Shown here: positions 5,496 to 60,298 of the stretch, piece by piece
How the letters are laid out: each line of letters opens with the position of its first letter
Numbering within the stretch: position 1 is the stretch's first letter
Assembly: GCA_039803925.1 (NCBI GenBank)
Contig: JBDRZL010000002.1
Location: forward strand, 124,001 to 188,000
Reading direction: 5' to 3'
DNA from: a candidate division WOR-3 bacterium
Lineage (GTDB): Bacteria; Hydrothermota; Hydrothermia; Hydrothermales; JAJRUZ01
DNA length: 64,000 nucleotides
Translations under genes and position numbers: made by a program
Notes under the pieces: model-generated
The model's database searches: none
The model's input: the letters and a program-made list of their open reading frames with translations, nothing else
Told to the model about the DNA's origin: nothing

Positions 5496-6343
5496 TGGGA
5501 TATATAAGTTTATTTGACCCTTTTAAAGATGGTCTCTGTACCTGTGAAAAAAAATATACCATCAATCCCTATACAGGTTGTAATCACAGATGCAGATACT
5601 GTTATATAACAAGTTATATAAGAGATGGATTCAAATTAAGATTAAAAAAAAATTATGTTGAGATTATAAAAAGGGAAATTAAAAAAATAAAAAATGTTTA
5701 TCCTTTCAACCTTTCCTCTTCCTCTGACCCTTATCCAGAAATTGAAAAAAAATTACTTTTAACAAGGAAAACCCTTATTCTATTAAAAGAAAAAAATTTT
5801 AAAGTTTCAATAATAACAAAGTCACCACTTGTTTTAAGGGATATTGATATACTTAGAGAAATGAACTCCTTTGTATCTTTTACAATTACCCATTATTCAG
5901 ATGAAATTTCAAGGAAAGTTGAACCATTTGCACCACCTGTTAGTGAGAGAATAAAAGCAGCAGGAAAATTAATAAGGGAAGGAATAAAAGTTTGTATAAG
6001 AATAGATCCGGTTATTCCTGGATACAATGATAAAAAGGATATAGCTTGTAAAATTTTAAAAAATCTTAATGGAGTTTTTATGGTTGTTTTTTCAACATAT
6101 AAAGCAAAACCGGATAATTTTTTAAGAATGAAAGAGATATTTCCTCATTTAGAAAATTTACCATGGGAAAAAAAGAAAGTAAGGGGTTATAGGTATTTAA
6201 GCTATGATTTTAGAAGAGAAATTCTTGAAAAACTTGTAAAAGAAGCAAAAAATTTTTGTGAAAAAATTGGATTATGCAGGGAAGATTTACCGGATTTAAA
6301 AAATACAAAATCCTGTGACCCTGTTTTTGAGTTAAATCTTTGA
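5495..6343 (+). CDS. Radical SAM protein, spore-photoproduct-lyase-like family
   Basis: 282 residues with the radical SAM cluster motif near the N-terminus: NPYTGCNHRCRYCYITSY (Cys spaced x3, x2), which binds the [4Fe-4S] cluster that cleaves SAM. Following parts fit the SPL/PA0069-like family: SSSSDPYPEIEKK, ITKSPLVLRDIDIL, and RIDPVIPGYND. Additional cysteines near the C-terminus (FCEKIGLCRED, KSCDP) could bind metal but are unproven. Translation is coupled to the Lon-like gene through TAATG. Family members are often annotated SPL-like without a proven substrate, so I make no claim of DNA repair. Confidence 0.8.
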   Translation: MGYISLFDPFKDGLCTCEKKYTINPYTGCNHRCRYCYITSYIRDGFKLRLKKNYVEIIKREIKKIKNVYPFNLSSSSDPYPEIEKKLLLTRKTLILLKEKNFKVSIITKSPLVLRDIDILREMNSFVSFTITHYSDEISRKVEPFAPPVSERIKAAGKLIREGIKVCIRIDPVIPGYNDKKDIACKILKNLNGVFMVVFSTYKAKPDNFLRMKEIFPHLENLPWEKKKVRGYRYLSYDFRREILEKLVKEAKNFCEKIGLCREDLPDLKNTKSCDPVFELNL

Positions 6344-6368
6344 ATTTAAATATTATTTTTGATAAAAT
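6340..6368 (+). promoter_or_regulatory. Predicted sigma70-type promoter of frr-uppS-cdsA
   Basis: TTGAAT (6340-6345), 17 nt spacer, TAAAAT (6363-6368). It starts within the end of the radical SAM gene. Transcription would begin near 6375, just before the T-arm-like element. AT-richness makes chance matches likely, but the spacing is ideal. Confidence 0.5.
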
Positions 6369-6378
6369 GATAATTTAA

Positions 6379-6390
6379 GGTTCAAATCCC
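6379..6390 (+). promoter_or_regulatory. T-arm-like leader element upstream of frr
   Basis: GGTTCAAATCCC, 23 nt before the frr ATG and about 11 nt after the -10 box. This is the same sequence as the 3' half of a tRNA T-arm. Seven similar elements stand at comparable distance before other genes in the window. Function unknown. Confidence 0.5.
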
Positions 6391-6412
6391 TTTGAATTAT
6401 TTATTATTAAAA

Positions 6413-6967
6413 ATGGAGGAAATAATTAAAGATGGTAGCGAGAGGATGGTTAAAACCATTAACAATTTAAAGGATGAACTTAAAAAATTAAGAACAGGAA
6501 GAGCCTCTCCCCATATTCTTGAAAGTATTAAAGTTAATTACTACGGGCAGGAGATCCCAATAATCCAAATTGCAGGTATTGGTGTACCAGAACCAAGATT
6601 AATTGTTATAAAACCCTATGACAAAAATGTAATAGGTGAAATTGAAAAAGCAATTTTAAAAAGTGGAATAGGACTTAATCCAAAGGTTGAAGGTGGTGTT
6701 ATAAAGATTCCGATACCACCTCTTTCTGAAGAAAGGAGAAGAGAACTTGTAAAACTTGTTAAAAAATTTGGGGAAGATTCAAAAATTGCCTTAAGAAACA
6801 TAAGAAGGGATTTAATGGATAAAATAAAAGAAAAAAAAGATAAGGGAGAAATTTCAGAGGATGATGCTGAAAGATTAAAGAAAAAGGTTCAGGATTTAAC
6901 AGAGGAAAAAACAAAAGAAGTTGATGAAATAATAAAAATAAAGGAAAAGGAAATAATGGAAGAATGA
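6413..6967 (+). CDS. frr: Ribosome recycling factor
   Basis: 184 residues from ATG 6413, the usual RRF length. RRF with EF-G splits the post-termination 70S ribosome. Family marks: LRTGRASPHILESIKVNYYG near the N-terminus, then IVIKPYDKNVIGEIEKAI, IKIPIPPLSEERRRELVK and a C-terminal charged helix. No Shine-Dalgarno precedes ATG 6413; the only GGAGG lies inside codons 2-3, five nt before an in-frame ATT, so a downstream non-canonical start cannot be excluded. The conserved KDG-S-E-R-M position favours the ATG. The last 4 nt overlap uppS (ATGA), a common gene order for translation and envelope synthesis. Confidence 0.96.
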   Translation: MEEIIKDGSERMVKTINNLKDELKKLRTGRASPHILESIKVNYYGQEIPIIQIAGIGVPEPRLIVIKPYDKNVIGEIEKAILKSGIGLNPKVEGGVIKIPIPPLSEERRRELVKLVKKFGEDSKIALRNIRRDLMDKIKEKKDKGEISEDDAERLKKKVQDLTEEKTKEVDEIIKIKEKEIMEE

Positions 6968-7650
6968 AAATACCTCAACATATAGCTATAATAATGGATG
7001 GAAACGGCAGATGGGCAAAGGAGAGAAATTTACCGAGAATACTTGGACATAAAGAGGGGATTGAATCTGTAAGGGAAATTGTTAGAACTGCAAGAGAAAT
7101 TGGAATAAAATACATTTCACTTTTTACTTTTTCCACTGAGAATTGGCAGAGGCCTGAAGAAGAAGTTAAAGGACTTTTTAATCTCCTTGAATCAGTCGCA
7201 AAAAAAGAACTTAAATTTTTGATTAAAAATGGAATAAGATTAAAAGTTGTGGGGAGCAGGGAAGAGTTGCCTTTAAAAACAAAAAAAATAATAGAGGAAG
7301 CAGAGGAAAAAACAAAGGATAATAAAGATATGTTCCTTATACTTGCTATTAATTATGGAGGAAGAAGAGAAATAATTGATGCAATAAATAAAATTTTAAA
7401 AAATGGAAAAAAAGAGATAAATGAAGAAGAATTTAAAAAATATTTATATATGCCTGAAGTTCCTGACCCTGACTTTTTAATAAGGACAAGTGGGGAAATG
7501 AGAATTTCCAATTTTTTCTTATTTCAAATTGCATATACAGAACTATATTTTACAGAAAAATACTGGCCTGATTTTAGAAGAGAGGATTTTTTAAAGGCAA
7601 TTGATGAATATACGAGGAGGAAAAGAAAATTTGGGAGGCTTTTTTCTTAG
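6964..7650 (+). CDS. uppS: Isoprenyl transferase (undecaprenyl-diphosphate synthase)
   Basis: 228 residues, cytosolic cis-prenyltransferase that condenses IPP onto farnesyl-PP to make the lipid carrier for peptidoglycan and surface polysaccharide. Seen: IAIIMDGNGRWAKERNLPR at the start (catalytic Asp and FPP-binding Arg), GHKEGIESVREIV, SLFTFSTENWQRP, LAINYGGRREIIDA, and near the end PDFLIRTSGEMRISNFFLFQ and EYTRRKRKFGR. All signature regions are complete. It overlaps frr by 4 nt and cdsA by about 20 nt, implying one operon. Confidence 0.96.
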   Translation: MKIPQHIAIIMDGNGRWAKERNLPRILGHKEGIESVREIVRTAREIGIKYISLFTFSTENWQRPEEEVKGLFNLLESVAKKELKFLIKNGIRLKVVGSREELPLKTKKIIEEAEEKTKDNKDMFLILAINYGGRREIIDAINKILKNGKKEINEEEFKKYLYMPEVPDPDFLIRTSGEMRISNFFLFQIAYTELYFTEKYWPDFRREDFLKAIDEYTRRKRKFGRLFS

Positions 7651-8416
7651 AATAATAACCGGATTAGTTTTATTTTTTATAGTTTTATTATTAACATTAC
7701 TTGGTACTTTACCTCTCTTTTTTTTAATTTTTATATTCTTACTCTTTGCTCTATGGGAATATTTAAGAATCTTATATAATACTGGTTTTATAATTAATCC
7801 CCATTTAATTTTTATTGTTGATTTAATTTTCTTTCCATTTATTATTTTCTTCCCTCCTATAAGGCTTTCACTATTAATGTTAATGATTGTTATTTTCTTT
7901 TTTTTATCGTTTCTTTCAGCAGAAAAAAGAAAAGGATTTAATTTTTTGGCATCTAGTATTGTGTCAATATTTTATTTAGTTATTCCTTCAACTTTATTTT
8001 ATCAAATAAGAACACTTTTTGGGTTAAAACATATAATTTTTTTATTAGGATGTGTAATATTTTTTGATTCTTTTTCATATTTTGCGGGGAATTTGTTTGG
8101 TAAAAGAAAAATCTGGGAAAGAATTTCCCAGAATAAAACTATTGAAGGATTTCTTGGCGGTTTTTTATCAGTTTTAATTTTTTCAATAATTTTTTCATTT
8201 TTTTTCAGGGAAAATACTCTAAAAAATATAATCCCTGGAATTTTTATTTCTTTTTTTGCTTTTTTTGGTGACCTATGGGAATCTATGCTGAAAAGGGAAA
8301 TGGGTGTAAAAGATTCCTCCAATATTTTACCAGGCCACGGAGGTTTTCTTGATCGTATTGATTCCCTTTTATTATCTATATATTTTTATTTTCTTTATAT
8401 TGCCAATATAGTTTAA
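7631..8416 (+). CDS. cdsA: Phosphatidate cytidylyltransferase
   Basis: An integral membrane enzyme converting phosphatidic acid and CTP to CDP-diacylglycerol. About 261 residues with seven or eight membrane helices. The C-terminus carries the family signature in full: SMLKREMGVKDSSNILPGHG followed by GFLDRID. I start at TTG 7631 because GAGGAGG lies 10 nt upstream and the protein then opens MGGFFLRIITG, as expected; an ATG at 7601 in the same frame would overlap uppS by 50 nt. It ends directly against metK on the opposite strand, with no room for a terminator hairpin. Confidence 0.93.
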   Translation: MGGFFLRIITGLVLFFIVLLLTLLGTLPLFFLIFIFLLFALWEYLRILYNTGFIINPHLIFIVDLIFFPFIIFFPPIRLSLLMLMIVIFFFLSFLSAEKRKGFNFLASSIVSIFYLVIPSTLFYQIRTLFGLKHIIFLLGCVIFFDSFSYFAGNLFGKRKIWERISQNKTIEGFLGGFLSVLIFSIIFSFFFRENTLKNIIPGIFISFFAFFGDLWESMLKREMGVKDSSNILPGHGGFLDRIDSLLLSIYFYFLYIANIV

Positions 8417-9565
8417 TTATAACAGTTCTCTAAATTCTTCCTTGCTATCGGTTCTTTCCCAGGTAAATCCCTCCTCTTCTCTCCCAAAATGCCCATAACA
8501 AGCAGTTCTCTTGTAAATGGGTCTCCTTAATTCAAGAAAATCTATTATACCTCTTGGAGTGAGATCAAATCTTTCTCTTATAAACTTAACAATTTTTTCT
8601 TCAGGTACTTTTCCAGTATCATAAGTATTTACATATAGAGCAACAGGTTCAGCTACACCTATGGCATAAGCAATCTGAATTTCACAGGTCTCTGCAATTC
8701 CTGAAGCAACTATATTTTTAGCAAGATACCTTGCCATATAAGAAGCAGATCTATCTACCTTTGTTGGATCTTTTCCTGAAAAACAACCACCACCATGTCT
8801 TGCATATCCACCATATGTATCAACCATAATCTTTCTTCCTGTTAAACCTGTATCTGCTTGTGGTCCACCAATTACAAATCTACCAGTTGGATTTATAAAA
8901 ATTTTCACATTATCATCCATCATTTCCCTCGGTATAATCTTCTCAATAACAACTTCAATCAAATCCTCCCTTAACTCCTTTATTGAAACATCAGGATCAT
9001 GCTGAGCAGAAAGAACAATTGCTGTTACCTTATCAGGTTTTCCATCTATGTATCTAACTGTCACTTGAGATTTACCATCAGGTCTCAGATAGGGTAAAGT
9101 TCCATTTTTTCTCACATCAGCGAGCCTTTTACAAAGTTTATGGGCAAGCATTATAGGAAGGGGCATAAGTTCTTCAGTCTCATTAATTGCAAAACCAAAC
9201 ATCATACCCTGATCACCTGCACCACCTGTATCAACCCCCATAGCAATATCAGGAGCCTGTGATTGAATAGCAGTAAGAACAGCTACAGTTTCATAATCTA
9301 ATCCATAAGCAGGATTAGTATAACCAGCTAATTTTATAGTTTCTCTTACAATATCAGGTATTTCAACATAACAATCTGTGGTAATTTCACCAGCAATAAC
9401 AAACATTCCCCTTGAAGTTAAAGACTCACATGCAACCCTTGCATCAGGGTCTTTTTCAATTATAGCATCAAGAATAGCATCTGAAACCTGATCACAGAGT
9501 TTATCAGGATGTCCCTCTGTTACTGATTCTGAAGTAAAATATGAAATGCCTTTAAGTTTTCTCAA
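8417..9565 (-). CDS. metK: S-adenosylmethionine synthetase
   Basis: About 382 residues; makes SAM from methionine and ATP. Seen: [20 protein letters not shown] near the N-terminus, [12 protein letters not shown] (ATP site), [20 protein letters not shown], and [21 protein letters not shown] choose the TTG at 9565 as start because GGAG sits 9 nt upstream; a second TTG at 9580 is in frame. With the 9565 start, the T-arm-like element lies 24 nt upstream, matching its spacing at other genes. SAM would feed SpeE (after decarboxylation) in the adjacent polyamine genes, although metK has its own predicted promoter. Confidence 0.96.
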
Positions 9566-49154: not shown

Positions 49155-50285
49155 ATTAAGTTTCCTCATTAAAATTTTTAATAGAATTGTGGCATAGGAA
49201 CCAGGAGGCAAAGAAAAAGAAAGTATAAGTTTTTCCTTATCATAATTAAAATTTAAATCCTCTGGATAAACCCATAACCTTCGAGTGTAACCCCTAAAGG
49301 AAAAATTTTCTAAAAAATCAGGAACTTTTAATGGATAACTTAAATTGTCCTTTTTTAATTCTCTAATTAAAATTTCTTCAAACTCAGGATGAGAAGGGAT
49401 TCTCTCAGTTCCAGGAACAGGAAATATAGGTTCACTCAAAATATCTTTAACTTCCTGATTTATTGTTTCAGGGACAAAAAGAAAAATATTTTTTATTTTA
49501 ATAACAAACCCTTTTTTAAAACTTATTTTACTTTTTTTTAGAAACTTACTTACACATTTATTCCATATAAGGGATGAAAATTTCTCAAAATAAATTTTTA
49601 ATAAATCAGATTCTATTTTCTTAATAATTCCTTTGCAATCATCTTCAATGAGTTTTTTTACGATTTCCCTGTCCTCCTCTGAAGGAGCATAAGGAAGAAG
49701 CCTTTCAGGTTTATAAAAAAATTTTTTTACATACTTTTTAAATCTTTTTAAATTCTTTCTTCCTTCAGGAGAAAGCGATAGAAGGTGAACTTTTATTGCT
49801 TCTTTAATATTTCCCTTAATTAAAAGCGGAAAAAATAAAGAACTTGCATCCGAGGATAATCTCTGTATATCAAAATAATTTGGAAAACCTTTTTTACTCA
49901 AATCCTCGAGAATTTCAAAAATCTTACCAACCTCATTTTTTCTTAAATCCCTCAAGGTAATTTTGAAATTGTTTTTTTCAAGATCATATGAGTTTAATTC
50001 TTTATCAGAAAATCCTATAAGTTCAGCAGAAAAATTTTTAAATTTTACATAATTGGGCACGTTCCCCTTTGCAGAAAAATAAAAAATACTTATAGATTTT
50101 TTATCCTTTAAACCTAAAAAACTTATTTTTGCATTAAAGGTTTTTTCAAGAAGGTTTTTAAGATAAAAACTTTCAAGACCAATCTTTTTTGCTTTATAAA
50201 CTTTATATAAACCTTTCTCCTTTAAAACACCTTTTTTTAAAACCTCCTCAACTACAAAATCCTCTAAAAAAGTTTTAAATTTCAT
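49149..50285 (-). CDS. truD: tRNA pseudouridine synthase TruD
   Basis: 378 residues. The start MKFKTFLEDFVVEEVL matches TruD, and catalytic Asp lies in FLGLKDKKSISIFYFS. Then GFPNYFDIQRLSSDASSLFF and the C-terminal RRLWVYPEDLNFNYDKEKLI with LSFSLPPGSYATILLKILM. It makes pseudouridine 13 in tRNA-Glu. TruD occurs in gammaproteobacteria, archaea and scattered other groups. Its ATG overlaps the propeller gene stop as TAATG, an odd functional pairing. Confidence 0.92.
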   Translation of the reverse strand: MKFKTFLEDFVVEEVLKKGVLKEKGLYKVYKAKKIGLESFYLKNLLEKTFNAKISFLGLKDKKSISIFYFSAKGNVPNYVKFKNFSAELIGFSDKELNSYDLEKNNFKITLRDLRKNEVGKIFEILEDLSKKGFPNYFDIQRLSSDASSLFFPLLIKGNIKEAIKVHLLSLSPEGRKNLKRFKKYVKKFFYKPERLLPYAPSEEDREIVKKLIEDDCKGIIKKIESDLLKIYFEKFSSLIWNKCVSKFLKKSKISFKKGFVIKIKNIFLFVPETINQEVKDILSEPIFPVPGTERIPSHPEFEEILIRELKKDNLSYPLKVPDFLENFSFRGYTRRLWVYPEDLNFNYDKEKLILSFSLPPGSYATILLKILMRKLNL

Positions 50286-52258
50286 TACTCGCAGATTATT
50301 TTTTTAATTTTAGTATCCTTATCCAATTTTATAACTAAAATATAAAAACCTCTTTCAAGATTAAAAGCATTAACCTTAAATCTGTCTCCTGAGTTTACAA
50401 AATTCAATTTTTTAACCCTTCCAGAGGGTGAATAGATAAGAATCTCCTTTAAATTTTCTTTTGTTTTTATATAAAAGAAACCCCTGTCTTTTTTAAAAGG
50501 ATTGGGGAAAACTATAGGTTCTTCTGCTTCAGAAGGTCCAAAAACTTTTAAATTCATAATTGAGACTCCATCCTTTGTACCAATTATTATTTCCTCATTC
50601 AAATTATCATAATATAAAAGAGAGGCAGAACACTGAGAATTAAAATCAATACTTTCAGTCCTTGTAAGAGTATTATAGGAAGATTCAAAAATTTTTTCCT
50701 CACCACTTCTTGATATAAAGATTAATCCACTTCTTGTAAGAGCATAAGTATTTCCATATTTATCATTTATTACTGAAACAGTATAAGAATCAAAAGTCCT
50801 ATAATTTTTAATAAATTGAAAATCAGGCAATTTGTATTCAAATAAACCTGAATTTGTTGCAAAAAAAATCTTATTTTCATAAATTGATATATCGTAAACA
50901 GGATAACCTGTATTCATAACAAAACTTATATTATAATTTTTATCAATTTTGTAAATGTTACCCTCTGTATTGGAAACAAAATAAAAATCAGCATATTTTT
51001 CTATATCTGTTGCATAACCAAGGTTAAAAATTTCTTTAATTTTCTCATCCTTTAAATTCCTTATTTCTATTGAATTCTGTGCAGGTTTTAAAACAGAAAA
51101 AGTAGAATCATTTAAAAATTTTAAGAGCTGAATGCATGTAGAAAGATTTAAAGTATCATAAATATTGAAAAGAGAATCAATTTTAAAAATTGGACCACAC
51201 CAAGGTGATGTGATTATAATCTCAGGATTTACATCAAGGGTTCTTATCCATCCGCCTAATAATTTATTTACCTTTTCATATTTTTCATTAAAAATATCAA
51301 TTCCTCTATCATGGGAAAAAAGGTAATATTTTCCAAACTTTTTAACAGAAGAAATGGAATTGGAAGTTAATTCTTTAAAATAATTTTTGAAATTTAAAAA
51401 TAAAGAATTTTTATAATCATAAATTACAATACCTTTTCCAAGGAGATAAATTTTATTTTTAACTTTAATTAAACTTTTCGTATTGAAATTACTGAATTTT
51501 AATTTTTGACCATTATATAAAATATATGAACCACCCTCTGTCCCTACAAATAATGTGTCAGAATTCCCAATTAGAGAATTTATAACATACGGAAATTTAG
51601 TTAAAAGAGAATCAGGATATAAATACAAAAAACTATCAGAAGAAACAAAAATTTTATTATTCAAGATAAAGATATCACCTATTTTTCCTGGTAAAATTCC
51701 AGAATGTAAAGTAGGAGGGATTATTCCGAGGAGATTAATTTTAATTTTATAAAGACCTAATTTTGTTCCAATAAATAAGGTATCTTTTATTATTTCAAGA
51801 GAAATCACGGTATCCTTAGGAAAATAATTTTTTCTTTCAAAGAAAAGTGAATCATCAGAAGTATCAATTGTGTTATTTCTATAAATACCCTTTAAACCTC
51901 TATTACCTGCTAAAAAAACTGTATCACCCTTTATCTTTATTTCCCTATAAAAATCTCTTTCAAGAAAAAGAGGAGGATAAAAATACTTTTTGTTATTTTT
52001 TAAATTTATAACAATAAGATTTTCAGAATTTGTAAAATTTAAAAGGCTATCTTTTAAAAAAATAGCATAATAAGGGTATAGGGGAATTGAATCAGAATTT
52101 GTAAATTTATAAAAAACTGAATCCTTATTAAAGTCGAAAAGATAAATACCGTGGTCACCTGTTATAAAAATTGTATCATTCCTGTTAAAAACACTGTAAA
52201 AAGTATCTGAATGTGTAAAATTATTAAAAATTGAAAAAAATAAAATTATTTCAAACAT
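50285..52258 (-). CDS. Secreted beta-propeller protein with sorting-type C-terminus
   Basis: 657 residues. N-terminal signal (MFEIILFFSIFNNFTHSD). Repeating strands such as IFITGDHGIYLFDFNKD, VFLAGNRGLKGIYRNN, LFIGTKLGLYKIKIN, and EIIIGTKDGVSIMNLKVFG resemble two-component-regulator propeller blades. The last ~90 residues (PIVFPNPFKKDRGFFYIKTK, EILIYSPSGRVKKLNF, FNLERGFYILVIKL) are the type IX/FlgD-like domain found at the end of exported proteins in the FCB group. Likely a surface protein. No catalytic domain is seen. Confidence 0.8.
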   Translation of the reverse strand: MFEIILFFSIFNNFTHSDTFYSVFNRNDTIFITGDHGIYLFDFNKDSVFYKFTNSDSIPLYPYYAIFLKDSLLNFTNSENLIVINLKNNKKYFYPPLFLERDFYREIKIKGDTVFLAGNRGLKGIYRNNTIDTSDDSLFFERKNYFPKDTVISLEIIKDTLFIGTKLGLYKIKINLLGIIPPTLHSGILPGKIGDIFILNNKIFVSSDSFLYLYPDSLLTKFPYVINSLIGNSDTLFVGTEGGSYILYNGQKLKFSNFNTKSLIKVKNKIYLLGKGIVIYDYKNSLFLNFKNYFKELTSNSISSVKKFGKYYLFSHDRGIDIFNEKYEKVNKLLGGWIRTLDVNPEIIITSPWCGPIFKIDSLFNIYDTLNLSTCIQLLKFLNDSTFSVLKPAQNSIEIRNLKDEKIKEIFNLGYATDIEKYADFYFVSNTEGNIYKIDKNYNISFVMNTGYPVYDISIYENKIFFATNSGLFEYKLPDFQFIKNYRTFDSYTVSVINDKYGNTYALTRSGLIFISRSGEEKIFESSYNTLTRTESIDFNSQCSASLLYYDNLNEEIIIGTKDGVSIMNLKVFGPSEAEEPIVFPNPFKKDRGFFYIKTKENLKEILIYSPSGRVKKLNFVNSGDRFKVNAFNLERGFYILVIKLDKDTKIKKIICE

Positions 52259-53325
52259 CTTTCAATTACCTCCTTTATTTTTTTCATATCATTAATATTA
52301 TAACGGTGATCGATAGGTAAAGAAAGTATTTTCTCAGGAATTTTGTGAACTTCTGGATAATTCGCCTTCTTTATTAAAGGGTGAACATTTGGCCATAGTG
52401 TTGGTGGATATATCCTGTTTTTAATGAGAAAATCTTTTATTTTATGTTTATTTTCACTAAAAAATGGGAAATTTAAGGGACATATGCCCTCTGGTAAGTC
52501 CCTGTAAAGTGGCTGTATTTTTTCAAAATTAAGGTTTTTTAAAAGATAAATAAAATTTTGCCTTCTTTTTTCCATTATAAATTCATAAGGAATTCTTTTC
52601 AAAAGGTAATTTGTTAAAAAAGAGGATTTTCTGGGATCTTTATTATCTGTTAATTTTTTTTCATAATTTTTATCAAGAACATCATAGGCAAAGGAAAATA
52701 AAGGCTTTGTTAAATAAGGAAAAAAATTGTGAAAATTTCTTATAAGGTAAGCTGATAACTTAACTAAAAAAGTCTCATAATCAAAGTTTTTAACAGAATC
52801 CTTAATCTCTTCCTCAGAAAAAAGAACACCTCCGTCAGGTAGAGGTAAAATTTTTCTCAAAGATCCAAAAATAAGAGATGGCTTTATTTTAAAATTTCTT
52901 TTTTTAAAGGTTAAAAGAGAATGACTTATATCAAGAATAAAGGGAAATTCAAGTTCATAATCCACTGGAAACCCAAAATATTCAATTATTATAACAATAG
53001 GACTTTTATACATTGCGGCTTTTTTCTTTATATCATCAAAATCAACCTGTGGTGATGGATTAAAATAAACTCTATAAAAATCAAAATTAAGGGATAATTC
53101 TTCAAAAGGTCTTATAACTTCATAGCAGGTATAGCTTGGTAGAAGAAAAAAATATTTTTCTTTTAAATTTTTAAGGAGAAAACGAAGAGCATCTCTTCCT
53201 GAAAAAAAGAGTTTAAAATTTTTCAAATAACCCTTCCAAAACTTAAAAATATTTTTCTTTTTTTTGAAAAGAAATGAAAATTCAAAATAGTAGTCAGAGC
53301 CAATAGGATAATTTTTTCTTCTCAT
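52246..53325 (-). CDS. DegT/DnrJ-like PLP-dependent aminotransferase-fold protein
   Basis: 359 residues. Fold I elements: FKLFFSGRDALRFLLKN, FFLLPSYTCYEVIRPF, IIEYFGFPVD, ILDISHSLLTFKKR with Asp for PLP, and FGSLRKILPLPDGGVLFSEE where Lys in SLRK is the likely PLP Schiff-base residue. C-terminal PLPRxL-like part is altered (LPEGICPLNFPFF, RIYPPTLWPN). Similar enzymes make amino sugars or act as nucleotide-sugar aminotransferases for polysaccharides. Divergent enough that catalysis is not certain. Overlaps the propeller gene by 13 nt. Confidence 0.7.
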   Translation of the reverse strand: MRRKNYPIGSDYYFEFSFLFKKKKNIFKFWKGYLKNFKLFFSGRDALRFLLKNLKEKYFFLLPSYTCYEVIRPFEELSLNFDFYRVYFNPSPQVDFDDIKKKAAMYKSPIVIIIEYFGFPVDYELEFPFILDISHSLLTFKKRNFKIKPSLIFGSLRKILPLPDGGVLFSEEEIKDSVKNFDYETFLVKLSAYLIRNFHNFFPYLTKPLFSFAYDVLDKNYEKKLTDNKDPRKSSFLTNYLLKRIPYEFIMEKRRQNFIYLLKNLNFEKIQPLYRDLPEGICPLNFPFFSENKHKIKDFLIKNRIYPPTLWPNVHPLIKKANYPEVHKIPEKILSLPIDHRYNINDMKKIKEVIERCLK

Positions 53326-53363: not shown

Positions 53364-56021
53364 ATGATTTTCTTTCTTTTAATTACCTTCCTTAATTATG
53401 AAGAAGAAGCACTTATAAAAGATATTCTATCCTATAAATATCTTGAAATTAAAGACCTTTCCTTTGAAAAGGATAAAAGTATATTTACAAATTTAAAGGA
53501 TTCTCTAACCCTCTTTTTTCTTAAAGAACCCCTTAAAATTCCTGAATACGCAGAAAAAACTTTTAAAGATTTTAATTCAGATGAAAGGGAAATTATTGAA
53601 AAAATTTTTAAATTAAAAATCAAAGAAGAAAATTTTGAAAATATCTTAGAAGAAACGATAAATAATTTAAAAAGGGCTAAAGAAATTATCAAAAATTCCT
53701 TTTCAAATATTAAGAAAGAAAAACTTGATACATTGATTTACAATATTACTCTTCTTTTTGAAGATGAAAATGACAAAAATGATGATACTTTATATGCTAT
53801 TTTTGAAAGAGAAAAGGGAAATAAAATTAAGGCAAAAAAATGGAATGAGAAGAAAATTGCAAAATATTTATTAAAAATAAATAGAGAAAAACTCTTTCAA
53901 GGTTTAAAAATTTCCTTTGAAAACTTAATTTTTTTAACCTATTCACTTATAAATGCAGAAAATTTAAGGGATACAGTAATAAAAACAGAGCTCGGGTATA
54001 TAGTGATAAACAGTAAAAGAGAAGATAACATATATAAAGGTGACAGTTTTTTTATTATTGTTGATTTAAAAGGTAATGACAAATATTTAGATAAGGCAGG
54101 TTCCTCAAATTTGTTTTATTCTATACCCTTTTCAATTTTAATCGATAAAGAAGGAAATGATTCTTATATTTCAAATAAAGCACTTTCCATCTGCTCATCC
54201 TTTTTTGGAGTTTCAATTCAATTTGATTTAAAGGGTAATGATTTAAGAAGGGGAAAATTCTTTTCAATTTCTTCATCCTTGTTTGGAATTAGTTTTCTTT
54301 TTGATAAGGAAGGGAATGATATCTATGAATCAGATTTTTTCTCTCAATCTGCTTGCTTCTTTGGAAAATCCTTTTTATTTGATTTTGATGGCAATGACTT
54401 ATATAAGGTAACAGAAAAAGGACAGGCTTTTTCAGGAACATTGGGATTTTCAATTCTTTATGATAGAAAGGGTATGGATTCCTATATAGCCTATGGTAAG
54501 AATTATCATATACCTCTTTTACCTGATGAAACAAGGTCTTTTGCACAGGGGTTTTCTCTTGGTATAAGACCCTATCTTGGTGGTGGTGTTGCTTTTTTAA
54601 TTGATAGAGAAGGAAATGATGTATATTATTCAGAAGTATATGGACAGGGCTCTTCTTACTGGTATGGAACAGGAATTTTAATAGATGGCGAGGGGAATGA
54701 TTTATACCATTTAGCAGAATATGGACAGGGTTCTGGTATTCACTTGGCCTGTGGAGCACTTTTTGATTTAGAAGGTGATGATGAATATATTTCAAGATTT
54801 GGTCCTGCTCAGGGTGAAGGTCATGATTACTCTGTTGGAATGCTTATTGACAAAAAAGGGCATGATACTTATAAAGTTTCAGGAGGTCAAGGAATAGGTT
54901 TAAATACCTCAGTTGGTATATTTATTGATTCAGAAGGAAATGATATTTATGTAACAACTGAAGAATTCGGTCAGGGCGGAGGAAAAATGTCAAGGGGGAA
55001 AATTGGAATAGGTATTTTTATTGACTTAAAAGGAAAGGATTTTTATAAGGGAGAAAATTTAAAAAAAGAACCCTTTTTAATTTCAAAGGGGGAATTTGGC
55101 TTAAGTTATGATCCTGACACAGTTAAAAGTGTTGAACCGGAAGAAGAAGGTATAGATATGGAAATTCCCCTTGATTTAGATATTGATTCTTTATTTAAAC
55201 TTGCTTCTGAATGGGAAGTAGGTAAGTATAAAAAGATTGTTCCAAAGGCAAGAAAAATTTTAGCGCAGAGAAAAGAGGATGCACTTATTTATATTTTTAA
55301 TAATAAAATAAGAACACTTAACAGCTTAGAATTAAGGGCAATTAAGGAAGTTATAAAAGAAAATAAAGAGTTAAGTGCACCCTATATGAGAAAAGCTTTA
55401 AAAGAAAAAAATGATACATCAAAATTGAATATTATCTATCTAACAGGTGAAGCAGAAGTTAAGGAGATGGAAAAGGATTTATGGAAATTGTTAAGAAAAG
55501 AAAAAAGAGATTTATTTAAAGCAAATATAATCTATTCATTATCAAAATTAAAAACAGAAAATTTTGAAGAATTATTTAAATATTTAAATGAAAATAATAC
55601 TGAAATAAAAATATCCCTTATAAGAGCATGCGGAGAAATAAAAAGAAAAAAAATTTTAAAAAAAATAGTTCCCCTGCTACAGGATAAAGATGCTCTTGTT
55701 AGGTTTGGTGCAGAAAAAATTTTAAGGGATAATGTGGATTCTGTAAGGTCTTATTTAATTGATAAAATTAACCAAAAAGCTAGCGATATAACTATATTTC
55801 ATCTTTTAAGGGTTTTTAAAGGAATAAAAGAAATGGATTCTGAGGTAAAAGAAGTTTTTTTAAAATTCTGTGAAAATGAAAATAAAAAAATAAGAGCAGA
55901 AGCTATTGAATCACTATTAAATTTTAAAGATGATGAAGAAATATCAAAAAAATTAAAAGAAATAAAAGAAAAGGAAAAAGAACCTTATATTTTATGGATT
56001 TTTCAAAGTAAAAGTTTTTAA
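53364..56021 (+). CDS. Exported protein with twelve 27-residue GND repeats and HEAT-like C-terminus
   Basis: 885 residues; I do not recognise the family. A hydrophobic N-terminus (MIFFLLITFLNY) may be a short signal; residues 15-200 are helical. At residues 234-560 come twelve repeats with a D-x-x-G-N-D-x-Y core (e.g. VDLKGNDKYLDKA, LIDREGNDVYYSEVYGQGSS, FIDSEGNDIYVTTEEFGQGG) at 234, 261, 288, 314, 341, 367, 414, 441, 468, 496, 522 and 554: period 26-28, one 47-residue gap. Later repeats add a Gly-Gln-Gly turn. This suggests a beta-solenoid, possibly Ca-binding. Residues 610-885 look like HEAT/PBS repeats (e.g. IVPLLQDKDALVRFGAEKIL). Confidence 0.75.
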   Translation: MIFFLLITFLNYEEEALIKDILSYKYLEIKDLSFEKDKSIFTNLKDSLTLFFLKEPLKIPEYAEKTFKDFNSDEREIIEKIFKLKIKEENFENILEETINNLKRAKEIIKNSFSNIKKEKLDTLIYNITLLFEDENDKNDDTLYAIFEREKGNKIKAKKWNEKKIAKYLLKINREKLFQGLKISFENLIFLTYSLINAENLRDTVIKTELGYIVINSKREDNIYKGDSFFIIVDLKGNDKYLDKAGSSNLFYSIPFSILIDKEGNDSYISNKALSICSSFFGVSIQFDLKGNDLRRGKFFSISSSLFGISFLFDKEGNDIYESDFFSQSACFFGKSFLFDFDGNDLYKVTEKGQAFSGTLGFSILYDRKGMDSYIAYGKNYHIPLLPDETRSFAQGFSLGIRPYLGGGVAFLIDREGNDVYYSEVYGQGSSYWYGTGILIDGEGNDLYHLAEYGQGSGIHLACGALFDLEGDDEYISRFGPAQGEGHDYSVGMLIDKKGHDTYKVSGGQGIGLNTSVGIFIDSEGNDIYVTTEEFGQGGGKMSRGKIGIGIFIDLKGKDFYKGENLKKEPFLISKGEFGLSYDPDTVKSVEPEEEGIDMEIPLDLDIDSLFKLASEWEVGKYKKIVPKARKILAQRKEDALIYIFNNKIRTLNSLELRAIKEVIKENKELSAPYMRKALKEKNDTSKLNIIYLTGEAEVKEMEKDLWKLLRKEKRDLFKANIIYSLSKLKTENFEELFKYLNENNTEIKISLIRACGEIKRKKILKKIVPLLQDKDALVRFGAEKILRDNVDSVRSYLIDKINQKASDITIFHLLRVFKGIKEMDSEVKEVFLKFCENENKKIRAEAIESLLNFKDDEEISKKLKEIKEKEKEPYILWIFQSKSF

Positions 56022-56945
56022 ATCTTCAAGGTATTTACCCTGGAAACTCTCCCTTTTCTCCAGTTCCCTTTCAATTTTATTTAATACAATCATTTTATTT
56101 TTACACCAATCAGGTGCAACTAACAAATTAAAAGGAGCTTCACCTGTTAATCTTGCGATTAATATATTTTCTTCCAGTCTTTCAATAAAATCACATGCAG
56201 CATTTATATACTCCTCCATTTCAAGGGGTTTATACTTTCCTTCCCTGTACCAATTCTCAAGTTCAGTATATTTAACGATATGCAAGGGATGAATTTTAAC
56301 TCCGTCAATTTTCAATTTATTTAAAAAAAAAGCTGTATTCATCCAGTCATCATATGTATCACCGGGAAGACCTATTATAACATGAGCCATAACCCTAATA
56401 TTTTTTTCCTTTAATTTAAAAACAGCTTCCTCAAAATTTTTAACATTGTGCCCCCTTTTTGTTATTTCCATTGTTTTATCATTTGCTGATTGAAGACCCA
56501 GTTCAACCCACAAATAAGTTTTCTTATTAAGTTCATAAAGAAGTTCCAAAACTTCATCTCCTACGGTATCACTTCTTGTTCCAATTGAAATTCCAACAAT
56601 ATCAGGATGGGTGTTTAATGCTTCATAATAAACTTTTCTCATGAATTCTATATCACCATAAGTATTTGTGAAGGCTTGAAAATAAACAATGAATTTATTA
56701 ACCTTTCTTCTATTTCTAATTATTTCCATACCCTTTAAAATCTGTTCTTTTAAAGGCACTTTTCTTCTTGCTGTTTCAGGGACAAAAGAGGGGTTATAGC
56801 AGTAAATACACTTCGCCTGTGGTGGACATTTAAAACCTGCATCCACTGAAATTTTCCAAACTTTTTCTCCGAAAAGATTCTTAAGATGTTCTGAAAATTT
56901 ATTATACCTTAAATTATAATCAAAAAATTTAACAATATCTTTCAT
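55992..56945 (-). CDS. Radical SAM protein, TIGR01212/YhcC-like family
   Basis: 317 residues from ATG 56945. Cluster motif: ISVDAGFKCPPQAKCIYCYN (Cys-x5-Cys-x2-Cys) after GEKVWKISV. Then YFQAFTNTYGDIEFMRKVYY, VGISIGTRSDTVGDEVLELL, YLWVELGLQSANDKTMEITK, and MAHVIIGLPGDTYDDWMNTA, typical of TIGR01212. It probably modifies tRNA or a small substrate; unknown. An in-frame ATG at 56966 would overlap rmlB further. It overlaps the RmlB-like gene by ATGA and the plus-strand repeat-protein gene by 30 nt at the 3' end. Confidence 0.88.
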   Translation of the reverse strand: MKDIVKFFDYNLRYNKFSEHLKNLFGEKVWKISVDAGFKCPPQAKCIYCYNPSFVPETARRKVPLKEQILKGMEIIRNRRKVNKFIVYFQAFTNTYGDIEFMRKVYYEALNTHPDIVGISIGTRSDTVGDEVLELLYELNKKTYLWVELGLQSANDKTMEITKRGHNVKNFEEAVFKLKEKNIRVMAHVIIGLPGDTYDDWMNTAFFLNKLKIDGVKIHPLHIVKYTELENWYREGKYKPLEMEEYINAACDFIERLEENILIARLTGEAPFNLLVAPDWCKNKMIVLNKIERELEKRESFQGKYLEDLKTFTLKNP

Positions 56946-58090
56946 TTTCGCAATCTGCTGTACCACTTTTCCAAAAAATTCTTAACTTTCTTATTTAAGA
57001 GTAATTCTTTATAAAAATTAAAATTTTCCTTATAAAATTCAAAGGTTTTTTTAAGAGCATCTTTAAATTTCCATTCAGGCTTAAAACCAAGTTCAAATAT
57101 TTTCTTGCCATCCATTGAATATCTCCTGTCATGACCAGGTCTATCCTTAATAAACTCAATGCCTTCCTCTTTATTTAATCCTCCTAATTTACATATAAGT
57201 TCAGCGAGCCTGATATTTTTTATTTCGGTGCTACCAGGTATGTTATACTCCTCACCAATTTTACCCTTTTTATAAACAAGGTATATAGCCCTTACTGCAT
57301 CTTCTATATAAATCCAGCTTCTTTTCTGATTTCCATCTCCATAGAGGGGAATTTTTTCTTTCATCAACACCTTCATAATAGAAAGGGGTATAAATTTTTC
57401 AGGAAACTGTCTTTCTCCAAAAACATTAGCAGGTCTTACTATGATTGCAGGTATTCTGTAAGTTTTATAATAAGAATAAACAATCCTGTCAGCACTTGCC
57501 TTACTTGCAGAATAAGGGCTTGAGGGATAAAAAGGGTGATTTTCTTTTGCTTTTCCTTTCAAAATTTCTCCATAAACTTCATCTGTTGATATATGTATAA
57601 ACTTTCCCTTTTCTCCGTGAATTTCTCTGAAAATATCAATTAAAAAGTAAGTCCCCAGTATATCTGTAAAAATGAATCTATGTGGATAAAGAATTGACCT
57701 ATCAACATGGGTTTCTGCAGCAAAATGAAAAATATTATTTGAGTATTTCATAACAAGTTTTAATGGCTTTACATTTGTAACGGAAGCTACAAGAAGAAAA
57801 ATCTTTCCCTCACCTTCAAGAAATTTTTTTATTTCTTTTTCCAGATCTTTTTCTTTCAGAACTTTATAATTACTTTTTATAAAATTTTTTTCAACCTTGT
57901 AAATATCCTTACCAAAGCCAGCATAAAATATATTTTCCTCATTAAGGTAGGGATAAAGATTAAAAGGGTGGCCTGAATATTCAAGAGAATCATAGACAAT
58001 TATTTTTGCATCCTTTTCCTTTTTTATCAAATATCTCACAAAATTAGAACCAATAAAACCAGCTCCACCTGTTACAAGGTAAATATTCAT
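56942..58090 (-). CDS. RmlB-like NAD-dependent sugar epimerase/dehydratase
   Basis: 382 residues, extended SDR. YLVTGGAGFIGSNFVRYLIK (Rossmann), IFHFAAETHVDRSILYPHRF, FIHISTDEVYGEILKGKA, YSASKASADRIVYSYYKTYR (Tyr-Lys catalytic), RPANVFGERQFPEKFIPLSI, and GDGNQKRSWIYIEDAVRAIY. This matches dTDP-glucose 4,6-dehydratase in layout, but ~40 extra residues lie between SLEYSGHPFNLYPYLNEENI and FHFAAE, so substrate specificity is uncertain and I give no symbol. It would supply a deoxysugar precursor for surface glycans. 4-nt overlap with the ABC gene. Confidence 0.85.
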   Translation of the reverse strand: MNIYLVTGGAGFIGSNFVRYLIKKEKDAKIIVYDSLEYSGHPFNLYPYLNEENIFYAGFGKDIYKVEKNFIKSNYKVLKEKDLEKEIKKFLEGEGKIFLLVASVTNVKPLKLVMKYSNNIFHFAAETHVDRSILYPHRFIFTDILGTYFLIDIFREIHGEKGKFIHISTDEVYGEILKGKAKENHPFYPSSPYSASKASADRIVYSYYKTYRIPAIIVRPANVFGERQFPEKFIPLSIMKVLMKEKIPLYGDGNQKRSWIYIEDAVRAIYLVYKKGKIGEEYNIPGSTEIKNIRLAELICKLGGLNKEEGIEFIKDRPGHDRRYSMDGKKIFELGFKPEWKFKDALKKTFEFYKENFNFYKELLLNKKVKNFLEKWYSRLRK

Positions 58091-58827
58091 CTATAAAAGA
58101 TAAAATTTTCTCCTTCTAAATTAAAAATTTTAACATTAAAACCAAGATATTCACTAATAATTTCTTTTTTCTCAAAAATTTTATTTTTTTCCACAAAAAG
58201 CGTATTTCCATTTTCTTTTAGAAAAAGAAAATAATCAGAAAATTTAATAGCAATATTAATATCATGTATTACAAAAATTAAATTTTTATTTTCTCTTTTA
58301 AGAATATTCTTCATAATATCAAAAATTAAAAAGGTATTTTCAAAATCAAGATGAAGACTTGGCTCATCAAGAAGAATAAGTTCAGGGTCCTTAACAAGAG
58401 ATCTTGCAAGAAGAACCTTTTGTTTCTGACCACCTGAAAGTTCTGAAAACTTTTTATTTTTTAATTCATAAATATCAAAAATTCTTAAAAAATAATCTAA
58501 CTTTTCTTTATCAACTTTTGTATAAGGATAAAAACCGAGTTCAACCATTTCATAAACTGTAAAAGGAACATCAGATTCATAAAATTGGGGTAAATAGGAA
58601 ATTTTTTTTGCTCTTTCAAAAGGATCCATTTTAAAAATATTCTTTCCATCAAAATTAATCTCACCTTTTAAGGGTTTTAATATACCGGAAAGAACCCTTA
58701 AAAGTGTAGTTTTACCTGTTCCATTTTTCCCAAGAATTGAAAGAATTTCACCCTTTTTTAAATAAAAGGAGACCCCCCTTAATACAGGGGGGTCTTTATA
58801 ACCGGCGTAAATAGATTTTACCTCAAT
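58087..58827 (-). CDS. ABC transporter ATPase (iron-siderophore/B12 type) with apparent ATT start
   Basis: 246 residues. Walker A: SILGKNGTGKTTLLRVLSG; Q-loop ISYLPQFYESDVPFT; signature LSGGQKQKVLLARSL; Walker B LILLDEPSLHLD; H-loop FVIHDINIAIKFSDYF. The FecE/BtuD-like class is inferred from the ISYLPQ and HDIN patterns. The first in-frame ATG is 58629, which would remove Walker A. Upstream the frame reads EVKSIYAGYKDPPVLRG, as for a normal ABC N-terminus, and the only start-like codon is ATT 58827, overlapping the previous stop. No permease or binding protein is nearby. Confidence 0.85.
   Translation of the reverse strand: MEVKSIYAGYKDPPVLRGVSFYLKKGEILSILGKNGTGKTTLLRVLSGILKPLKGEINFDGKNIFKMDPFERAKKISYLPQFYESDVPFTVYEMVELGFYPYTKVDKEKLDYFLRIFDIYELKNKKFSELSGGQKQKVLLARSLVKDPELILLDEPSLHLDFENTFLIFDIMKNILKRENKNLIFVIHDINIAIKFSDYFLFLKENGNTLFVEKNKIFEKKEIISEYLGFNVKIFNLEGENFIFYR
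58771..58794 (-). promoter_or_regulatory. 9-bp GC-rich hairpin near the 5' end of the ABC gene
   Basis: Arms GACCCCCCT and AGGGGGGTC with a 6-nt loop, 33 nt into the gene and very stable for this AT-rich DNA. On the minus strand TCCTTTTATTT follows, so it could terminate or slow transcription. It encodes KDPPVLRGV. Confidence 0.55.
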
Positions 58828-59117
58828 CTTGATTTTGGTTTTATCCTTTGTATATCCCTTTGTCTTTCAGATTCTTTTTTATTATCTTCAGTTTTTTCCT
58901 TGTAAGGAGCGTAAAATTTTCCTTCCCTATCCCTTAATCTTTTAAAGAATCTATCAGTTATTCCGTCACCATCTCTATCAAGGGTATCTCTTTTAACCTT
59001 ATAAATTATTTCACTTTTGAGTTCCACCCTTTTAGATTTTGATGATTCTGACTTTTTATTAATCTCTATTGAATGAAGTAGAAAAGGTAAAATAAGTAAA
59101 ATTAAAATTTTTTTCAT
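58818..59117 (-). CDS. Small exported protein with EF-hand-like DxDxDG motif
   Basis: 99 residues. Signal peptide MKKILILLILPFLLHSIE, then a charged chain with DTLDRDGDGITDRFFKRLRD resembling a calcium-binding DxDxDG loop, and a basic tail (ERQRDIQRIKPKSRLR). No known domain beyond that. It overlaps the DUF4384 gene by 4 nt and its stop overlaps the ATT start of the ABC gene. It may be a secreted partner of the neighbouring exported proteins. Confidence 0.6.
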   Translation of the reverse strand: MKKILILLILPFLLHSIEINKKSESSKSKRVELKSEIIYKVKRDTLDRDGDGITDRFFKRLRDREGKFYAPYKEKTEDNKKESERQRDIQRIKPKSRLR

Positions 59118-60298
59118 CTCCTTGTCCTTTTTGTTCCTGATTTATTTTGAGGTAAAACTCCGCCTTTTTTCAATTCAGTTTCAAACTTTTCCCTGTGAAT
59201 TCTGGTTTCTTGTTCTCTTTGAATTCTACTTTCTCTTTCCTTTCTTAATTCCTGGCTTTTTATAGGAGTAGTAACTCTTTTTCTGTAATCCTCTGATTCT
59301 TCCTTTTCCATCTCTTTATTTTCTTTTACCTTTCTGATATCTGACTCATAAATATTTTTTCCTTCATATTCCTTATATTCCCTTTTCCTTTCAACTTCAG
59401 TTTCCCTGATTCTTTTTTGTTCATGTTCTGGTTTAGTCTTTATTTCTCCTTTAGATTCCCTTATTCTTTCTTTTTCATAACTCCTTTTAACTTCTTGTTC
59501 TTTAACTAAATCCCTTACAGGTTTACCTTCAACAATTCCTATCTCTCTTACCCTTATCCTTGTTTCTTTTTCTACCTCCTGTAGACGACTTCTCTTTTCA
59601 GGTGTAATTTCTTTTGTAAATTCCCATCTTGTTCTTATTCTGTATCTGGGAGGTGCATATTTTATATACCTTGGAACATAAATATATCTATATTCATAAA
59701 CCCTTATTTCATATAATGGACAGAAATCAAAATAAAAGTGAATAAAAACATGGGGATGATGGCAATCGTAACAATACCATGGTGCCGGATGATATACATA
59801 ATACCTTGGAATTATATAATAACTTGTCCATGCGCCAAAATAAACCCTTGGGAACCAGAAGGGTGGTCTGAAACTGAAAACGAGAGCAAATCTTATATCA
59901 TCATAATCATAATATATATAAGATTCAGGTGGTAAAGGTTCAAAACAATCAAGGGGCATATCATAAATTGGATAAGGAACAACAACTGCATAAATATATT
60001 CAATACCTGGATCATAAGAAGAAGTCCATTCAATATCATCGTAAAAATCATCGGGTAAAACATAATGGACACCTGCATGTATGTATACAGGTTTTCCGGC
60101 AGGAAATATTAATTTAGTTCTTCCATTTGGGTCAATATTATATAAGTAAAGATAACCATCTACTTTTGAAATAACATTAATTTTTAATCTTTCACCAGCT
60201 GTATATATAGACTTTGGACCACCTTCAACCCAGACATCCACCATTCCTGCCTTTAAGGCAAGGAATTGGATAGCTAATATTAAAATTAACTTTTTCAT
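59114..60298 (-). CDS. DUF4384-like exported protein with Tyr/Pro-rich core and Arg/Glu-rich tail
   Basis: 394 residues. Signal peptide to about Ala17. Residues 20-120 fit DUF4384: VDVWVEGGPKSIYTAGERLK, GYLYLYNIDPNGRTKLIFPA, IHAGVHYVLPDDF. Residues 120-225 are extremely Tyr/Pro-rich (YIIPRYYVYHPAPWYCYDCH, IRVYEYRYIYVPRYIKYAPP). From 230 to the end the chain is mainly Glu, Arg and Lys, likely helical or coiled (RIRETEVERKREYKEYEG). Low-complexity tails like this suggest surface or envelope attachment. Preceded by a strong Shine-Dalgarno (AAGGAGG). Confidence 0.7.
   Translation of the reverse strand: MKKLILILAIQFLALKAGMVDVWVEGGPKSIYTAGERLKINVISKVDGYLYLYNIDPNGRTKLIFPAGKPVYIHAGVHYVLPDDFYDDIEWTSSYDPGIEYIYAVVVPYPIYDMPLDCFEPLPPESYIYYDYDDIRFALVFSFRPPFWFPRVYFGAWTSYYIIPRYYVYHPAPWYCYDCHHPHVFIHFYFDFCPLYEIRVYEYRYIYVPRYIKYAPPRYRIRTRWEFTKEITPEKRSRLQEVEKETRIRVREIGIVEGKPVRDLVKEQEVKRSYEKERIRESKGEIKTKPEHEQKRIRETEVERKREYKEYEGKNIYESDIRKVKENKEMEKEESEDYRKRVTTPIKSQELRKERESRIQREQETRIHREKFETELKKGGVLPQNKSGTKRTRR

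Follow-up and report, generated by a model that had tools for sequence, protein, structure and literature searches.

The closest described systems to the protein analyzed here are the RTX proteins, the RTX-like beta-helix of MpAFP and the EZ-HEAT repeat proteins. In the RTX motif, XUXGGXGXD, the ligands are the carbonyls of the Gly-rich turn and the carboxylate of Asp-9, with the bridging carboxylates about 4.8 Å apart (PMC6891781). A review of RTX proteins describes their instability without Ca2+ and reports that at position 4 even a methyl side chain would clash (PMC6891781). The MpAFP repeat reads xGTGNDxuxuGGxuxGxux (PMC3492233), and region IV of this protein (MpIBP; PDB 3P4G) corresponds to the RTX-like 19-residue repeats of a Marinomonas adhesin.

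The gene considered here encodes 885 residues from an ATG start and was called as an open reading frame at 53364-56021 (+) of the window, the 64,000-nucleotide stretch of a candidate division WOR-3 contig that was analyzed. Like MpAFP region IV, its product is predicted to contain a beta-solenoid whose coils each carry one G-N-D turn, with a hydrophobic or aromatic residue after it. Unlike MpAFP, it has a coil of 27 rather than 19 residues and a D-x-x-G-N-D rather than an x-G-T-G-N-D turn, combines a fixed coil number with a conserved polar patch, a helical cap and a HEAT half, and lacks the ice-binding Thr row. From RTX (PF00353) it differs in that one motif occurs every 26-28 residues, as opposed to two nonapeptides (GGxGxDxUx) per 18-residue coil, and in that it has a signal-like segment at the N-terminus, whereas RTX proteins are marked by a C-terminal type I secretion signal. 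The C-terminal 275 residues resemble EZ-HEAT/HEAT_2 (PF13646), PBS lyase and alphaRep repeats, a likeness that implies no lyase function; the difference is that here this half is probably exported and is joined to an acidic-turn solenoid. The exported parallel beta-helix polysaccharide lyases resemble it only broadly, as exported beta-solenoids that bear a polar patch, and neither a sequence match nor a significant fold match to them was found in Pfam, PDB sequences or Foldseek.

Domain architecture and turn motif

The signal-peptide-like hydrophobic N-terminus (residues 1-11, positions 53364-53396), assigned from the sequence and from the N-termini of homologs, is followed on the + strand by a helical N-terminal domain (residues 12-203, 53397-53972), the beta-solenoid (residues 204-582, 53973-55109), a low-confidence linker (residues 583-606, 55110-55181; pLDDT below 50 at 585-597) and an EZ-HEAT-type alpha-alpha superhelix (residues 607-882, 55182-56009). 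An AlphaFold2 model of the whole protein (64 sequences; pLDDT 90.1, pTM 0.88) places helices at 12-196, beta-strands at 204-582 and helices at 607-882. Within the solenoid, pLDDT is mostly above 90 and each coil consists of one longer and one shorter strand in a regular pattern; modeled alone, the solenoid reaches a pLDDT of 91.0 and a pTM of 0.92. The fold, a helical cap followed by a beta-solenoid and a HEAT superhelix, is predicted with high confidence, and the solenoid with one acidic turn per coil that the initial annotation had suggested is what the structure prediction returned. The HEAT-like C-terminus that it had also named matches HEAT_2 (PF13646) at 44.4 bits against a cut-off of 27.7, and resembles alphaRep/HEAT structures in profile and Foldseek searches.

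At the level of the whole protein, Foldseek matches are dominated by HEAT/armadillo proteins and NCBIfam gives weak HEAT-type matches only. In line with the initial annotation, which knew of no family with this pairing, no named family covering both halves at full length was found in Pfam, NCBIfam or PHROGs. The N-terminal domain (12-203) has no Pfam or PDB relative, and a profile of the solenoid matches no PDB sequence even at E 10. When the solenoids of 45 homologs are compared with Pfam, only scattered weak matches appear, including weak matches of three of the 45 to Peptidase_M10_C, the serralysin C-terminal domain. Matches of the solenoid to SBBP and Tachylectin, scattered over a few members, were disbelieved, and those of the N-terminal helices to Pex19 and MSC fell below cut-off and were taken as helix noise.

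The turns (residues 234-561, 54063-55046) were defined by motif count and by the alignment of the 45 homologs. Twelve D-x-x-G-x-D cores lie at residues 234, 261, 288, 314, 340, 367, 414, 441, 468, 496, 522 and 554, as opposed to a mean of 0.09 and a maximum of 3 in shuffled versions of the protein (n=2000). The initial annotation had counted twelve D-x-x-G-N-D-x-Y cores; the count of twelve holds for D-x-x-G-x-D, but the exact form occurs in 7 of the 12, and the remainder read GNDLR, GMD, GDD, GHD or GKD. Its spacing of mostly 26-28 residues likewise applies to most gaps (27, 27, 26, 26, 27, 47, 27, 27, 28, 26 and 32), but not to those of 47 and 32, which contain insertions. Also, the regular period that it described is not that of a free repeat, as both coil number and spacing are fixed, the spacing at 30–45% identity: in 30 orthologs, at down to about 31% identity, the series is kept almost to the residue (the last gap being 32 or 33), and most of 80 loci from other phyla show the same spacing. 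Local differences in Fermentibacterota and a few others fall mostly at a replaced core residue or an insertion. Over 540 sites in the 45 homologs, the first Asp of the turn is conserved at 95%, the Gly at 98%, the second Asp at 99% and the Tyr at 94%. Since spacing and turn residues are conserved across orthologs and phyla, the solenoid is an ancient, fixed architecture that does not expand. A chance repeat is excluded by the shuffles together with the conserved spacing, and a lineage-specific expanding repeat by the identical spacing across phyla.

Aligning D1-x-x-G4-N5-D6-x-Y8 onto RTX positions 4-9, 1 and 2 shows that Gly-7, Asp-9 and the hydrophobic residue at position 2 are kept (the Gly, second Asp and Tyr of the percentages above), whereas position 4 is Asp and Gly-5 gives way to any residue. 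These two changes rule out a canonical RTX site. A PF00353 match is absent both for the window protein (E up to 1) and among the 45 homologs (E up to 0.1). Thus, judged by its residues, the GND turn is RTX-like but not RTX. The initial annotation had set the repeat apart from RTX nonapeptides, which holds for the motif, the HMM and the two positions, but overlooks the resemblance of the turn to the G7-x-D9-x-U half. The top Foldseek match of the solenoid in the PDB is 3P4G (E 0.17, probability 0.72, TM 0.38/0.46), which is not significant, although the same protein occupies four of the top six rows when the solenoid is searched alone. This Ca2+-bound RTX-like MpAFP beta-helix is the nearest solved fold; the match is weak and suggestive only.

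Family distribution, split genes and the conserved patch

The window protein is one member of a widespread, unnamed bacterial family that extends across several uncultured phyla. A protein search finds homologs in 115 of 147 genomes of its own phylum, WOR-3/Caldifarciminota, and a profile search finds the solenoid in 106 of 125 Cloacimonadota, and all five Delongbacteria; among sampled genomes it is present in 31 of 40 Fermentibacterota and in 10 of 39 Eisenbacteria. When 84,980 species genomes were scanned, 225 relatives came up, the best 80 of which are labeled WOR-3, Stahlbacteria, Cloacimonadota, Fermentibacteria/Hyd24-12, Eisenbacteria, Delongbacteria, Latescibacterota or Coatesbacteria; we suspect that a few other labels among these 80, such as Acetofilamentum, are wrong. 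Among named organisms, Candidatus Hydrothermus pacificus comes nearest, at 43% identity (locus L032). The pairing of GND solenoid and HEAT repeats that the initial annotation noticed is therefore real and conserved across phyla. The full-length form is mostly single-copy, and the gene is not essential everywhere, since some well-assembled genomes of the window's phylum lack it. A literature search found no paper on the family. A very common, strongly conserved and probably exported protein of several large uncultured phyla is therefore still unnamed; its main domain lacks a Pfam family, and no structure of a relative has been solved.

Two further features, neither mentioned by the initial annotation, emerge from the comparison: a natural split of the two halves and a conserved patch. 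The solenoid and the HEAT half are encoded by two open reading frames with a 4-nt overlap in six loci (L073, L085, L101, L102, L107 and L124; in L107, for example, 5989-7749 and 7746-8642), and are separated by a short gap in two more (L111 and L123). In eight loci the split HEAT frame has a hydrophobic, signal-like segment of its own at the start (for example, MRFLALLFILLIVPQ and MIQVLLSIFLVTNA), and a frameshift origin of the split is therefore unlikely. The tree shows at least three changes of the split label and does not settle fission versus fusion. Since the split frames are adjacent and the HEAT frame has a signal-like start, an extracytoplasmic location of both halves, as parts of one unit, is most likely. 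The split also provides a ready-made binding pair for the bench.

The N-terminus of the window protein, MIFFLLITFLN, is hydrophobic and has no basic n-region. A strongly hydrophobic stretch is found within the first 60 residues of 87.5% of the aligned homologs, as opposed to 23% of internal windows. It counts against export that the signal peptides predicted across the window's order are short and have no basic residues; even so, the protein is probably exported via its N-terminal signal.

Outside the cores, the alignments show conservation to be concentrated in coils 6-10 (residues 382-516, 54507-54911). Invariant or nearly so are H382, P384, L385, R402, GG407-408, Y432, Q455, GIHL458-461, SR477-478, G480, HD487-488 and SGG506-508, which include the motifs H382-x-P-L-x-P and Q455-G-x-G-I-H460-L. 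In the register of the repeat, D488 stacks on H460 and H487 on I459. In paralogs that have the GND part only, at 33-42% identity, R402, Y432, Q455, G456, H460 and D488 are kept almost throughout, and in some distant paralogs Trp replaces H487. From this pattern of conservation the patch looks like one functional site, for binding or catalysis, and the fixed coil count makes it a testable one.

Many genomes encode a second, more distant GND protein that lacks the HEAT half. HEAT-less GND-solenoid proteins of about 530-740 residues with no adjacent HEAT gene are found in L113 (4210-5841 and 7540-9192), L116 (3925-5793) and L117 (4658-6424), and further ones in L118 (4001-5584), L119 (2041-3993), L121 (3021-5231) and L122 (2941-4956). 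Genomes of family f27 have a GND form of about 1140 residues with a different C-terminal part (L120, 3778-7200).

Proposed mechanism and alternatives

We give an even chance to the reading that this is a calcium-stapled extracytoplasmic solenoid with a conserved ligand-binding or catalytic groove and a HEAT docking arm; we infer both the calcium and the biochemical function. On this reading the protein would consist of two modules, lie outside the cytoplasm and be a core protein of several uncultured FCB-group phyla. It would be exported by its N-terminal signal, and its middle part would fold as the beta-solenoid of twelve coils of about 27 residues that is predicted with high confidence. Each coil would place one D-x-x-G-N-D turn on the same edge, with the carboxylates about one beta-strand spacing apart. 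Stacked carboxylates point to a cation, and a row of Ca2+ most likely neutralizes them, stapling the coils as in the RTX-like MpAFP beta-helix, and the solenoid may fold only after export, in a Ca2+-rich space. Coils 6-10, together with the long coil-6 insertion, would form one conserved polar site (R402, Y432, Q455, H460 and H487-D488) for binding or processing a single specific ligand, with an envelope glycan or peptide as the likeliest candidate; the C-terminal HEAT superhelix would dock the solenoid to an envelope partner. The adjacent split genes suggest that the two modules act jointly, as one unit. If the acidic row does bind calcium, the RTX-like turn would extend to a wider solenoid, with an N-terminal signal replacing type I secretion. 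A bolder claim, which we hold tentatively, is that the family represents a new class of calcium-stapled 27-residue-coil solenoid, an envelope enzyme or receptor ancestral in several FCB-group phyla, with an exported HEAT partner that is either fused or separate.

The step involving calcium has a rival of its own, in which the Asp row forms a ladder held by hydrogen bonds, free of metal, whose sole role is to close the turns; we regard this as possible but doubtful. Other solenoids have turns closed by ladders of Asn and Asp, and the Asp at RTX position 4 and the lost Gly-5 depart from the canonical RTX site. However, the closest fold (3P4G) binds Ca2+, and twelve stacked, nearly invariant carboxylates would be expected to repel one another without a cation, as we infer from PMC6891781. 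A calcium-stiffened rod could also serve as a structural or adhesive surface protein akin to the RTX adhesins, having no specific chemistry and making its contacts through the HEAT half. The acidic-turn stack and a nearest fold that is an adhesin's Ca2+-bound beta-helix both point this way; yet adhesin repeats vary in number and surface, whereas here the coil number, the spacing and the polar patch are fixed across phyla, the full-length form is mostly present in one copy, and no RTX-type HMM matches, which leaves this alternative unlikely.

A slightly better case, though still an improbable one, can be made for a protein that is mainly an enzyme, namely a periplasmic or surface beta-solenoid glycan lyase or hydrolase in which R402, Y432, H460 and H487-D488 would carry out catalysis, calcium would support the structure and the HEAT half would be an anchor only. 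Polysaccharide lyases are known among other exported beta-helix proteins. Arg, Tyr, His and Asp residues that never vary cluster in neighboring coils of a protein that otherwise diverges to about 30% identity, and R402, Y432, H460 and D488 persist in the paralogs without the HEAT half. Against this, no enzyme is matched in Pfam, NCBIfam or PDB sequences, Foldseek gives no significant lyase or glycosidase, the replacement of H487 by Trp affects a proposed catalytic position, and no sugar-metabolism genes are conserved as neighbors. Least probable among these readings is an accessory role in envelope assembly or in the type IX secretion system (T9SS), with the HEAT half holding clients or machinery. 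The T9SS translocon protein SprA is encoded in 137 of the 147 genomes of the phylum, including the window's (G000:C10:32849-33874); a SurA/PPIase-type protein is a recurring neighbor in Cloacimonadota; and two genes away from the GND-HEAT gene lies a predicted T9SS cargo, the exported-looking product of 50285-52258 (-), with a Por_Secre_tail sorting domain (PF18962). However, SprA occurs in families without the GND protein as well (for example, f10, G049-G053), no neighbors conserved across phyla were found, and the GND-HEAT protein itself has no C-terminal T9SS sorting domain (PF18962). The co-occurrence with secretion genes that the initial annotation had proposed as a check is therefore present but uninformative, because SprA is nearly universal in the phylum.

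Genomic context

In the window the GND-HEAT gene stands alone, between a divergent neighbor at 52246-53325 (-) and a convergent radical SAM gene at 55992-56966 (-), the end of which overlaps it by 30 nt. A scan for promoters and terminators gave promoter matches no commoner than in shuffles. A mobile or viral origin of the gene was rejected, as it has no relatives on plasmids or viral contigs and no significant viral fold.

Recurrence of particular neighbors is confined to single phyla, and a conserved operon was rejected on this ground. In Cloacimonadota, a tricorn-like protease recurs near the gene along with the SurA/PPIase-type protein, and in Fermentibacterota, thiamine genes and an unknown protein do so; the thiamine genes represent local synteny. 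In Fermentibacterota, a lipoprotein-like family (L078, 5259-6395, and its relatives), often duplicated and with no Pfam match, lies downstream of the GND-HEAT gene in 14 loci.

Two other genes of the window deserve mention. The product of 59114-60298 (-) is a DUF4384 protein; its middle is rich in Tyr, Pro and His, and its long C-terminus in Lys, Glu and Arg. The gene at 58087-58827 (-) encodes an ABC ATPase. Its Walker A motif (GKNGTGKTT) precedes the first ATG of the frame as listed, and the open frame continues upstream, so the true start is earlier, perhaps at a rare start codon or by way of an overlap with 58818-59117.
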